Below, piece by piece: positions 16,786 through 50,069 of a stretch of DNA of 50,097 nt. Both the position numbers and the translations under genes were made by a program. Within the stretch, counting starts at the first letter, position 1, and each line of letters opens with the position of its first letter. Below the pieces are notes generated by a model. The model was not told the DNA's origin. It saw nothing but the letters and a program-made list of their open reading frames with translations, and made no database searches. The DNA lies in the NCBI GenBank assembly GCA_017411405.1, contig JAFQQE010000011.1, positions 1 through 50,097 on the forward strand, given 5' to 3'. This stretch comes from Bacilli bacterium (GTDB taxonomy: Bacteria; Bacillota_I; Bacilli_A; RF39; UBA660).

Positions 16786-19530
16786 TTATTGTACTTTTCT
16801 ATAAATAGTATAAGTTTTACCATTGATGTCTTGTGTCGGAACATTTGGATCTATTTCTTCATTAATAATAGTATATTTTGTTGAATCAATAATTGGAGTT
16901 ACTTCACTATTAGAATTATATACGAATATAGGTTCTCCATTATCACTATTTAATTCTGCATTGTCATTTATATTGATAACTATTTTTGGATCAGTCATAT
17001 TTTTATAATAATTATCATTTATTTCTACGAAAATTACATCTCCTGTGCTTTCAGTTCCATTATTTGTTGGATATACAGGTAAAAGTTTTTCACCTACAGC
17101 ATTTAAAGTTCCACCATAAATATTTAGTTCTCCTAATTTAATACCTATTACAGATGCTCCTGTTAATTGACCTCCATAAATGTTAGTTACGCCGTTTTCT
17201 GGCAAGTATAAGGCAAAACCATCTTTTGCAGTAGCACTTATAGATGATTTATCATAAATATTTATTTCTGTTTTTCCCCATGGATTAGTACCGCTTATAC
17301 CATATCCGTCTTCAGAAATAGAAATATTACCTTTGAAATCTAACGCAGCATTTTCTCCAAATACATTTACTCCGTAGTTAGGTGCTGAAATAAATACATC
17401 TTCCTCGATAACTAATCTAACATTTTGTGCTTCTTTTGTTTTTTGTCCAGATATAATTGCTGATGCAGAGCCTTTTGCTTCTAAATATCCATTTGATATT
17501 GTTAAAGTTGTGTTTTTACCTTTTAACCAAATACCACCATAACAGTCTTCTTCTATAAATAAAGTATTTCCATTTAAATCTAAATATAATTCATCCGGAT
17601 TATTAGCATCATCTCCGATATTATTAATTATTATATCTTCACTAATTGTTAAATTATATAAACCATTTACTAAAACAGCTTTATTATCTTTACTAGATTC
17701 TTCTATTGCTTTAGCAATATGTTTTTCTGTATAATTTTTTCCATTTACACTTATAACAGCTAAATCATTTGATAAATAATACGTTTTATCGCCATCAAAT
17801 TCTAATGTATTGTAATGATCACTAGTTATTATAGGTTTCGTCATATTATTAGGATTGTATATTAATATAGGTTTTCCATTTACACTATTTAATGATGAAT
17901 TTTGATCAATATTTATTCTAATATTATCTAAGTATACAGGATTCATTTCAACATATATAGCATCTCCTGTACTATATATACCATTATTAAATAATTCAGG
18001 CTCTTTTTTAGTTCCAATTGAATAAATACCACTTCTATTAATATTTAATTTACCAGCTTTAATTCCAATTGCAGTAGCTGTTTTTATATAAGAATCATTT
18101 ATTTCTGTATTTCCTTCATGAGGTAAATATAAACCGTAAGTATATTCTTCTGTAGACAATATATTTGCATATTTTAAATTTATATTAGCCCCAGCATCTT
18201 CTTTATTTCCACGTCCTGAAATACCACTAGCTCCTTCTGCTAATAAGTTAATAGTTCCACTAAAATTAAGATTCGCACCATTACCTATTACAGATATACC
18301 AATTCCCTTAGTATTTATTTCAACAGAACTATCAACATTTAAAGTTATATTTTGATTTTCAATCGAAGGTTGACCAACAGTAATTGCTGTGCCACTTTCA
18401 TTTTCAATTGTACCTCTCTTATAGTTTTCAACATCATGTATGCTACTATAAATATTTAACGAACTATTCTTACCAGTGATATATAATACGAACTTTCCGT
18501 TATCTCGAGATAAAGTTTGACCATTTAAATCTAAATACATTTCTTCATTTTCTTTATCTAATGTTATAAGTTTTGAAACTACTAATTTAGTGCTTGCATT
18601 AGGTATAATACTTGCATGCCATGACTCATTAGAAGCTTCAATAGCTTTATCAACATTATTAATTGAGTAATTAATATTTCCAGTTCTGATAACCGCTTTT
18701 TCTAGTTTTTGATAAAGAACATCTCCCTCAGTGAATGTCATTGATAAAACATCTATTGGATTTCCATCTTCATCTACATATCCTTCAACTGCATATTCAT
18801 CCCAAGATTGAAATAATTCAGACTCATCAATTAGATATAATCTGCCTTCTTTCGTTGTTTGATACCAACTACGAATTTCCGCATTTTCTAAATCATCTTT
18901 ATCTGCATAATTATATACAGGTATTTGATATGGAATATAAAAATCGCCATATATCATTTCGTTTTCATCAGCATCATAATTAGTATCTACACCAACATAT
19001 CCTCTTTCTTCGCTAAAAAATTGAAAATAAGTTGTTGTTGCAGGTATTTTAAATTTACCATTTTCATAAATTACATCAAATTGTTCGTGTTGTGTACCTG
19101 TTACCTCTATACCAGGATCAAATTCTATAATTTTTTCTTCATTGTTTTCAAAAAATAATACTAAACTTTCCTCTAATAAATTTTCTTCCTCTTCTGTATC
19201 AATTGGATTAAGTTCACCATTACTTTTTATATACCAATCCCCTGTTAAATCGCTATAATATATTACTTTAGGTTTTCTATCTAATTCATCATAATCTTTG
19301 TTATAAACAGATAATTGAATATACACATAATTTGCTCCAGCTTCAGCCGATTCTCCAGCATTTATAACATAATTATTATGAAACTTAGTTCCGCCTATTA
19401 AATAAACATCGCTACCAGAATTTTCAATATCAGTCATATTTTCTTTTAACGAAGCAGCATCAGCCCTTATGATAAACGTACTTAAAAATACAAATATTAT
19501 AATAAATAATAATCTTCTTATTTTATTCAT
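16786..19530 (-). CDS. Secreted protein with two beta-helix-like repeat modules
   Basis: A 914-residue exported protein: signal peptide (residues 1-26, RRLLFIIIFVFLSTFIIRADA), an N-terminal region of about 260 residues rich in acidic and aromatic residues, then two homologous modules of about 300 residues (roughly 295-590 and 600-900). Both modules share YLDLNG-TL, GKN-(S/T)L-I, YG(I/V)-V-G-NA-L-F-G-I, LYLP-G-T-I, IGIK-G-LNI, STGD-I-VE and G-PI-(I/V)YN. The regular short beta-strand and Asn pattern fits a right-handed beta-helix. No LPXTG or C-terminal membrane anchor is visible, so attachment is unclear. It follows the Thr-rich protein by 11 bases with AGGAGG. Confidence 0.85.
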   Translation of the reverse strand: MNKIRRLLFIIIFVFLSTFIIRADAASLKENMTDIENSGSDVYLIGGTKFHNNYVINAGESAEAGANYVYIQLSVYNKDYDELDRKPKVIYYSDLTGDWYIKSNGELNPIDTEEEENLLEESLVLFFENNEEKIIEFDPGIEVTGTQHEQFDVIYENGKFKIPATTTYFQFFSEERGYVGVDTNYDADENEMIYGDFYIPYQIPVYNYADKDDLENAEIRSWYQTTKEGRLYLIDESELFQSWDEYAVEGYVDEDGNPIDVLSMTFTEGDVLYQKLEKAVIRTGNINYSINNVDKAIEASNESWHASIIPNASTKLVVSKLITLDKENEEMYLDLNGQTLSRDNGKFVLYITGKNSSLNIYSSIHDVENYKRGTIENESGTAITVGQPSIENQNITLNVDSSVEINTKGIGISVIGNGANLNFSGTINLLAEGASGISGRGNKEDAGANINLKYANILSTEEYTYGLYLPHEGNTEINDSYIKTATAIGIKAGKLNINRSGIYSIGTKKEPELFNNGIYSTGDAIYVEMNPVYLDNIRINIDQNSSLNSVNGKPILIYNPNNMTKPIITSDHYNTLEFDGDKTYYLSNDLAVISVNGKNYTEKHIAKAIEESSKDNKAVLVNGLYNLTISEDIIINNIGDDANNPDELYLDLNGNTLFIEEDCYGGIWLKGKNTTLTISNGYLEAKGSASAIISGQKTKEAQNVRLVIEEDVFISAPNYGVNVFGENAALDFKGNISISEDGYGISGTNPWGKTEINIYDKSSISATAKDGFALYLPENGVTNIYGGQLTGASVIGIKLGELNIYGGTLNAVGEKLLPVYPTNNGTESTGDVIFVEINDNYYKNMTDPKIVININDNAELNSDNGEPIFVYNSNSEVTPIIDSTKYTIINEEIDPNVPTQDINGKTYTIYRKVQ

Positions 19531-47864: not shown

Positions 47865-48992
47865 TTATTTTAGTTTCTCTACTATTTTATATAAATTTTC
47901 CATAGATTTACTTTGATCAATTTTACTTATTTTATTTGTCATTTTATTTAAAGCTTTTTCATTATATAGCATTTCTTTAAAATATCTATTGAAAGTATCT
48001 TTTCCCCTTACTCTTTTTGCATATCCTTTACGTACTAAGTATCTTCTATTTTCTACTTCTTGTCCGCCATTACCTTTTACTAATAATATAGGTTTATTAA
48101 ATAATAAACATTCAGTAACTTGTGCTCCACCTGGTTTTGTTATTACAAAATCACTTATATAATAAAATTCATTTACATTTGTTACAAAACCATATACATG
48201 TACATTTTCTCTTTTATATTTTTTTACATAATTTTTTGCTATACGTTCTGCAGTTTTATCTTTTCCAGCTATAAATAGTACATTACAATCATAGTTTTGT
48301 TTCAATATTTCTTTAAAATAAGTTAAGTTTACAATTGTACCATTTCCTCCGCCTGCGAAAAATAATACTGTTTTTTTATTATTCTTTATTTTAAATTTTT
48401 TCTTTAATTCATCAATATTTAAATTTTTAATCATATCAGGAGATAATGGAATTCCTGTTGTATGTATTTGTTTGTTTTTAAATCCTTTTTTTAATAAATA
48501 TATTCTTTCTTCTATACTTCCAACAATAATAGCATCTATATTTTTTAGAGAATTTAACCAGAATTCATGAGAATGATAGTCTGTAACAACTGTAACTAAT
48601 TTAGAATTAGTTATTCCTTTTTTATTATATTTATTAATTATATCACTTCCAAAAAAATGAGTTGCAATAGTTATATCTGGATTAAATTTTCTAATTGTTT
48701 CTTTTAATTCTTTATTATCAAATATCTTTAAAGATATTTTTCCACTAACATATGCTGATAATTTATTATTAAAACTAAAATATATTAAAGACCATAACCA
48801 GGGAAATCTTGTCATAATAAATTCACTAGATTTTTTACTTAGTGTACCAATAATTGGAATTGAATAGCTTATTAAATCTAATGTAAGACATTCATATTCT
48901 CCTGTTTCTTCAAAATATTTTTTTATATATAATGCAATTGACTTATGTCCACTTCCATAAGTTGCATACGGTATTAAAATTCTTTTTTTCAT
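47865..48992 (-). CDS. GT28 glycolipid synthase (diacylglycerol glycosyltransferase, UgtP/MGDG-like)
   Basis: Transfers sugar from UDP-sugar to diacylglycerol, making membrane glycolipids. The 375-residue protein opens RILIPYATYGSGHKSIA (MGDG-synthase type N-terminus), contains VTVVTDYHSHEFWL and HTTGIPLSP, and the C-terminal donor site FITKPGGAQVTECL and GNGGQEVENRRYL, typical of GT28. Candidate starts are GTG 49001, ATG 48998 and ATG 48992. The last is chosen because it begins MKKRIL and follows GTGATG. It is only 41 bases behind a LexA-controlled small membrane gene and may share its transcript. Confidence 0.85.
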   Translation of the reverse strand: MKKRILIPYATYGSGHKSIALYIKKYFEETGEYECLTLDLISYSIPIIGTLSKKSSEFIMTRFPWLWSLIYFSFNNKLSAYVSGKISLKIFDNKELKETIRKFNPDITIATHFFGSDIINKYNKKGITNSKLVTVVTDYHSHEFWLNSLKNIDAIIVGSIEERIYLLKKGFKNKQIHTTGIPLSPDMIKNLNIDELKKKFKIKNNKKTVLFFAGGGNGTIVNLTYFKEILKQNYDCNVLFIAGKDKTAERIAKNYVKKYKRENVHVYGFVTNVNEFYYISDFVITKPGGAQVTECLLFNKPILLVKGNGGQEVENRRYLVRKGYAKRVRGKDTFNRYFKEMLYNEKALNKMTNKISKIDQSKSMENLYKIVEKLK

Positions 48993-49033
48993 AATCATCA
49001 CAAATATATTTTAGCATATTTCTTTAATACTTA

Positions 49034-49138
49034 CTAGGCGTTTAAATATTTTAATCTAAAGTATAATCCTACAAAACTTAATATTATAGTTAAATAAAAT
49101 AATATAACCTCCTTATATTCTACAAAGTATTTTTTCAT
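49034..49138 (-). CDS. 34-residue membrane peptide under LexA control
   Basis: A frame MKKYFVEYKEVILFYLTIIL continuing SFVGLYFRLKYLNA, with an exceptionally strong GGAGGAG site. Charged start, one membrane helix (about residues 11-27) and basic end. It is divergent from lexA and its promoter carries the LexA box between -35 and -10, so it should be silent until DNA damage. Bacillus has the division inhibitor gene yneA in the same divergent position; this peptide has no LysM domain and is much shorter, closer in form to SidA- or TisB-like SOS membrane peptides. Function (division arrest or membrane effects) is inferred. Confidence 0.72.
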   Translation of the reverse strand: MKKYFVEYKEVILFYLTIILSFVGLYFRLKYLNA

Positions 49139-49160
49139 AATAACTCCTCCTTACACATTA

Positions 49161-49189
49161 ATAATATAACGAATATTTGTTCGTGTCAA
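49161..49189 (-). promoter_or_regulatory. SOS promoter of the membrane peptide with embedded LexA box
   Basis: On the minus strand TTGACA (49184-49189), a 17-base spacer and TATTAT (49161-49166). The spacer contains the LexA operator CGAACAAATATTCG (49170-49183), one base from the Gram-positive consensus CGAAC-N4-GTTCG. LexA binding would directly occlude RNA polymerase. The box also lies about 25 bases upstream of the lexA -35. Confidence 0.85.
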
Positions 49190-49208
49190 TAAAAACATAA
49201 ACAATTGT

Positions 49209-49237
49209 TTGACTTTTTACACAAAAAATGTTAATAT
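49209..49237 (+). promoter_or_regulatory. lexA promoter
   Basis: TTGACT (49209-49214), 17-base spacer and TAATAT (49232-49237) on the plus strand. The leader is short, with AGAGGTG before the ATG at 49257. Only one LexA box is visible in the shared intergenic region, upstream of this -35, so autoregulation may be weaker than control of the divergent gene. Confidence 0.72.
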
Positions 49238-49956: not shown

Positions 49957-50069
49957 TTTCGTTTGTTATAGTTTTTGAAATTTTATTCTGTTTTTTTGTC
50001 AATGACACTTGTGTTTATTTTATCATTGACAAAAAAATAGAATATATTATAATTTTTAAACAAACGAAA
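49957..50069. promoter_or_regulatory. Large imperfect palindrome with an embedded promoter
   Basis: Outer arms TTTCGTTTGTT (49957-49967) and AACAAACGAAA (50059-50069) are perfect inverses. Inner arms 49985-50005 and 50023-50043 match at 20 of 21 positions (core TTTTTTTGTCAATGA). The right inner arm holds TTGACA (50026-50031), 16 bases and TATAAT (50048-50053), a good plus-strand promoter aimed off the edge. The outer arms could be operator half-sites or the legs of a cruciform. No open frame lies within. Confidence 0.55.

Follow-up and report, generated by a model that had tools for sequence, protein, structure and literature searches.

A conserved 34-codon gene divergent from lexA probably encodes a minimal SOS division inhibitor in uncultured gut Bacilli

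Introduction

What stands beside lexA in uncultured gut Bacilli, and could its product hold back cell division during DNA damage? The question is raised by a very short reading frame that diverges from lexA in the 50,097-nucleotide stretch of Bacilli DNA analysed here (the window). In Bacillus and Staphylococcus, the lexA-adjacent locus is occupied by yneA and sosA, and the lexA-adjacent SOS membrane proteins tested in Gram-positives, namely YneA, ChiZ, DivS and SosA, are division inhibitors (PMC6851548). On its own, the membrane segment of YneA binds TM7 of FtsW and takes up a septal position; in B. subtilis, division goes on when the segment lacks LysM, which is needed to stop septal wall synthesis (PMC13396833). 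The extracellular region of SosA is likewise critical for activity (PMC6851548), and SidA, a peptide of 29 aa, acts on FtsW, its proposed divisome target (PMC4211646). No description of the micropeptide reported here was found in the literature searched, within which few subscription papers were in reach.

The micropeptide gene and its surroundings

The micropeptide frame (Table 1) recurs with the same 34-codon length and stop position in all five genomes of the genus (that of the window and G001-G004), and an AGGAGG/GGAGG-type ribosome-binding site is kept in all five. Pooled over the genus micropeptides, pS is 0.53, pN 0.14 and dN/dS 0.17; third codon positions account for more of the changes than either other position. 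A family profile search recovers the peptide in its own genome and in all of G001-G004 at E values of about 1e-12. A frame so short, under the usual gene-calling length, might be a chance ORF in DNA conserved merely as the lexA regulatory region. However, the dN/dS ratio and fixed stop, the strength of the profile match within a whole genome, and the survival of the micropeptide, intact and with its own promoter, away from lexA in G003 leave that reading a negligible probability and effectively exclude it. The ORF is a real, conserved gene, and is well supported as such.

A first-pass annotation had proposed a 34-residue peptide divergent from lexA, with a GGAGGAG site and a TTGACA-17-TATTAT promoter holding a LexA box in its spacer. 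All of these features are present in the sequence, the divergent lexA is genuine, with both LexA Pfam domains found, and the conservation of frame and box that it had suggested checking holds in 5/5 genus genomes and about 93% of family loci.

Table 1. Features of the lexA-micropeptide region, in window coordinates
Feature	Position	Strand	Evidence or detail
UgtP/MGDG-synthase-like glycosyltransferase gene, 32 nt downstream of micropeptide	47865-49001	minus	PF06925, E 2e-19
Micropeptide gene, 34 aa, MKKYFVEYKEVILFYLTIILSFVGLYFRLKYLNA	49034-49138 (stop included)	minus	Frame and stop conserved, dN/dS; ATG start at 49138, 34 codons, TAG stop, ends 49034
Ribosome-binding site GGAGGAG upstream of micropeptide ATG	49144-49150	minus	Inside GTGTAAGGAGGAGTTATT
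Micropeptide promoter TTGACA-17-TATTAT	49161-49189	minus	11/12 consensus; -35 TTGACA 49189-49184, -10 TATTAT 49166-49161, spacer 17 nt
LexA (SOS) box CGAACAAATATTCG between -35 and -10	49170-49183	minus	Motif, relatives, recA
Second LexA box TAAACAATTGTTTG, overlapping lexA -35	49198-49211	plus	Matched in 80 family loci; kept in G003
lexA promoter TTGACT-17-TAATAT	49209-49237	plus	Spacer 17 nt
lexA repressor gene, 205 aa	49257-49874 (ATG 49257)	plus	PF01726 LexA_DNA_bind, E 4.7e-21; PF00717 Peptidase_S24, E 3e-31

Two further observations concern lexA and its surroundings. The expected LexA self-cleavage site, usually Ala-Gly, reads Cys-Gly (KISCGNP) in the window's protein, and likewise in G003. 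At the contig end after lexA, a perfect TTGACA-16-TATAAT promoter (50026-50053, plus strand) adjoins TTGTCAATGA in inverted orientation.

Promoter and LexA boxes

The box in the micropeptide promoter begins at the first spacer base, directly after TTGACA, and is followed by TTA and then the -10 hexamer. The 20-mer made up of -35 and box, TTGACACGAACNNNNATTCG, occurs a single time in the window at 0 mismatches, and its chance expectation there is 0.05 matches even at 3 mismatches. At the corresponding position, 63 relatives have a TTGAC-type -35, a spacer of 17 or 18 nt and a TANNNT -10, with the spacer opening in CGAAC in 52 of them; most of the remainder carry TTGATA or TTGAAA as the -35 with the same box. 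The predicted mRNA leader is only about 15 nt long and contains a strong ribosome-binding site.

A weight matrix built solely from the micropeptide boxes, with recA upstream regions not used in its construction, detects a site in front of recA in 28/28 family genomes examined, in most cases some 80 bp ahead of the gene start, and 200 base-shuffles matched none of these sites. These comparisons give good support to the predicted SOS box in the micropeptide promoter, and the gene would apparently be switched on by DNA damage. In the window's own genome, the micropeptide box is nearer the CGAACNNNNGTTCG consensus than the recA box, AATACATTTGTTCG, or the lexA box; if it behaves as the sulA box of E. 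coli does, the gene would be tightly repressed and induced late. Since the second box lies over the lexA -35, the two divergent promoters have separate operators.

Sampling of the wider LexA regulon of this genome relied on pattern and family searches. Degenerate box scans returned mostly chance matches (25 hits for the reversed-pattern control vs 15), and the other matches, inside a gyrA/parC-like gene or upstream of an unrelated ORF, were set aside. One further LexA-like box with 1 mismatch, AGAACCTATATTCG, lies in the window at 16923-16936 (minus strand).

Spread in the family and a natural separation from lexA

A divergent ORF of 25-55 aa with one hydrophobic helix stands beside lexA at 80 of the 87 family loci, a count reached from 83 automatic matches after L108, L163 and L166, which had no promoter or box, were discarded. 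G003 adds one that lies apart, so that 81/87 family lexA loci or genomes have a single-helix ORF of this size whose promoter contains a LexA box, and six loci are without a micropeptide beside lexA. Exact duplicates between the two genome sets were removed from these counts, in which some redundancy may remain. The micropeptide sequence drifts widely across the family.

In G003, the nearest relative by lexA identity (86%), the micropeptide seems absent only because an inserted element and a contig end intervene. The contig that carries lexA breaks off 237 bp upstream of the gene; the micropeptide lies on a second contig and is followed there, as in the window, by the UgtP-like gene. The separation is seen at L169:1498-1602 and L084:2116-2352, and the two junctions share inverted ends ACCGAAACTCAAA (13 bp) and carry a duplicated AAATAAAAACAATT of about 14 bp, as expected of an inserted element; its ORF matched no family. 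The micropeptide retains TTGACA-CGAACAAAAATTCG, and lexA retains its own promoter and box. Because promoter and box have stayed with each of the two genes, the micropeptide appears to belong to the LexA regulon independently and not as a side effect of the operator of lexA.

In another family of the class, locus L161 (genome G057) has an unrelated-looking 57-aa single-helix ORF divergent from lexA, with a LexA-type box and a DUF896 (ynzC-like) gene after it, suggesting that independent micropeptides may occupy the lexA-adjacent place.

Peptide anatomy

Across the family, the peptides share the consensus MKKxxxxYGGxILFYxVIIxGVxLLNxRFxYLN, after which come a variable linker and, in many cases, a short hydrophobic C-terminus such as IAMNN or VAIGD; the 34-aa peptides of the window's genus are without linker and end motif. 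AlphaFold2 modelled the micropeptide as one helix (residues 2-33, mean pLDDT 92.6), in agreement with the single helix proposed earlier. In 82/83 peptides the N side carries the greater positive charge, which places the predicted C-terminus outside, and the peptide is predicted to be one transmembrane helix with an N-in/C-out orientation. Conservation follows a periodicity that corresponds to one face of the helix (shuffling test, p 0.003-0.011; best angle, 100-105 degrees), with Y15, L25, R28, L32 and N33 among the best-kept positions, and this face runs on past the membrane segment to its outer edge; L16, L20 and F27 belong to the variable face. Such a single conserved face, continuous through the membrane and its outer edge, would fit a specific partner in the membrane better than a pore.

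CtpA-like proteases are believed to recognise the C-terminal ends of YneA and SosA (PMC6051672, PMC6851548), and by analogy the end motif of the family might mark the peptide for degradation. Loss of the tail in the window's genus following loss of CtpA was ruled out, as an S41 protease is still present in the window's own genome and in G001 and G004.

Relation to known SOS peptides

Searches of Pfam, NCBIfam, PHROGs and the PDB with the micropeptide family gave no significant match. Five members match the NCBIfam SosA model NF041581 weakly (best E 0.034), with scores among the matches listed of 10.8-13.4 bits vs a cutoff of 60 bits; a search for the SosA family in the class and phylum samples gave nothing over the cutoff, and the controls likewise nothing. 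Aligned by hhalign with a Lachnospiraceae YneA-type alignment, the micropeptide received a probability of 1.9%, in a test of low power for short helices.

The micropeptide shares divergence from lexA with YneA and ChiZ, and a LexA box in its promoter and a predicted single N-in/C-out helix with the SOS division-inhibitor class, and Pfam finds no LysM domain in it. YneA (Bacillus subtilis) and ChiZ are similarly placed beside lexA, under SOS control and with an N-terminal membrane segment, but they possess LysM, needed in the case of YneA, and show no profile similarity. SosA (Staphylococcus aureus, 77 aa) also diverges from lexA, is LexA-controlled, has one membrane segment and no LysM, and has a conserved stretch just outside the membrane (PMC6851548), although it is twice as long and has an extracellular part. 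SidA (Caulobacter crescentus, 29 aa) matches in size class, SOS control and as a small inner-membrane protein; it is alphaproteobacterial, and the likeness is one of description. The micropeptide most likely works like the known SOS inhibitor class, by analogy, while not demonstrably belonging to any known family.

The first-pass annotation had cast the peptide as a LysM-less functional replacement of YneA. The absence of LysM stands, descent from YneA or SosA finds no sequence support, and functional replacement is a well-founded inference. In Lachnospiraceae a LysM (YneA-type) ORF occupies the lexA-adjacent position, and LysM domains are common elsewhere in genomes of the micropeptide's family. 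The idea of a lineage devoid of cell wall or LysM was rejected on the genomes checked.

TisB and DinQ of Escherichia coli, which are SOS-controlled single-helix peptides, carry regulated leaders and antisense RNAs. They furnish the main rival reading, in which the micropeptide would be a LexA-controlled membrane-depolarising peptide that slows growth or forms persisters and leaves the divisome untouched. Similar size, a single membrane helix, SOS control, the DinQ precedent (PMC3567139) and a weak match of one family member to the TisB model (E 0.059) all speak for it. The genomic setting is different, however, and the leader predicted for the micropeptide is very short, with a strong ribosome-binding site; the hydrophobic moment of its membrane segment is low (0.06-0.17), and the conserved face beyond the membrane, together with the yneA/sosA position, points to a protein partner. 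We regard a depolariser as fairly unlikely.

Neighbouring genes

A UgtP/MGDG-synthase-like gene lies downstream of the micropeptide in the window and in many relatives, and in the window the two are possibly co-transcribed. UgtP is a metabolic division regulator in Bacillus, and if micropeptide transcription reads into the UgtP-like gene, glycolipid synthesis would rise during SOS. This arrangement lends some appeal to a further alternative, that the peptide is a small regulator of another membrane enzyme of the SOS response, such as the UgtP-like glycosyltransferase or an envelope protease. Yet the downstream neighbour differs between genera, other relatives having transketolase-like, MazG-like or DNA-polymerase-I-like ORFs, and because neighbours change while peptide and box persist, we consider such a role quite unlikely.

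At L004-L019, L021-L024, L031, L040 and L054, an ORF of ~100 aa overlaps the micropeptide stop or lies within about 13 nt of it; it resembles MazG by eye, with a Pfam MazG match of only E 0.1, and is likely a co-induced partner of the micropeptide. At L055, L106, L111 and L112, a DNA polymerase I-like ORF, judged by its N-terminal sequence, directly follows the micropeptide and could thereby sit behind an SOS promoter.

Discussion

FtsW/RodA family proteins occur in 36/36 genomes checked, and LysM is found elsewhere in family genomes, so that the target class exists and LysM is at hand yet unused at the micropeptide locus. The known lexA-adjacent inhibitors, the SidA and YneA precedents, the presence of FtsW and the LysM ORF at the Lachnospiraceae locus together make an inhibitor aimed at the divisome the preferred reading, FtsW being its most likely partner. 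We therefore propose that the micropeptide is probably a minimal, LexA-repressed, single-pass division inhibitor acting on an FtsW-type septal synthase, and probably a stripped-down version of a larger SOS division brake. Since the B. subtilis YneA segment without LysM is inactive, a micropeptide without LysM must act differently.

In the mechanism we envisage, RecA would trigger LexA self-cleavage and free the box in the promoter spacer, and the peptide would be made at once from its very short leader. It would then insert as a single-pass protein, N-terminus inside and C-terminus outside, and its conserved helix face and juxtamembrane R-x-x-x-L-N stretch would bind to FtsW and partners, which form the septal peptidoglycan synthase. 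Bound in this way it would hold the synthase inactive, much as SidA does, and division would be paused during DNA damage. We infer all three of its elements: induction, FtsW or another late divisome partner, and the division block.

A broader proposal, to which we give slightly less than even weight, is that an undescribed, lineage-wide family in uncultured gut Bacilli stops the septal synthase with a bare membrane helix and a few outside residues, the window's genus having the most reduced form (34 aa), in which the conserved C-terminal tail, maybe a protease tag, has been lost. The gene is too short for standard annotation. A family with almost nothing outside the membrane opens to test the question whether contact between helices is by itself enough for an SOS brake in a Gram-positive, and it would supply the missing SOS checkpoint of a large uncultured group of gut bacteria.
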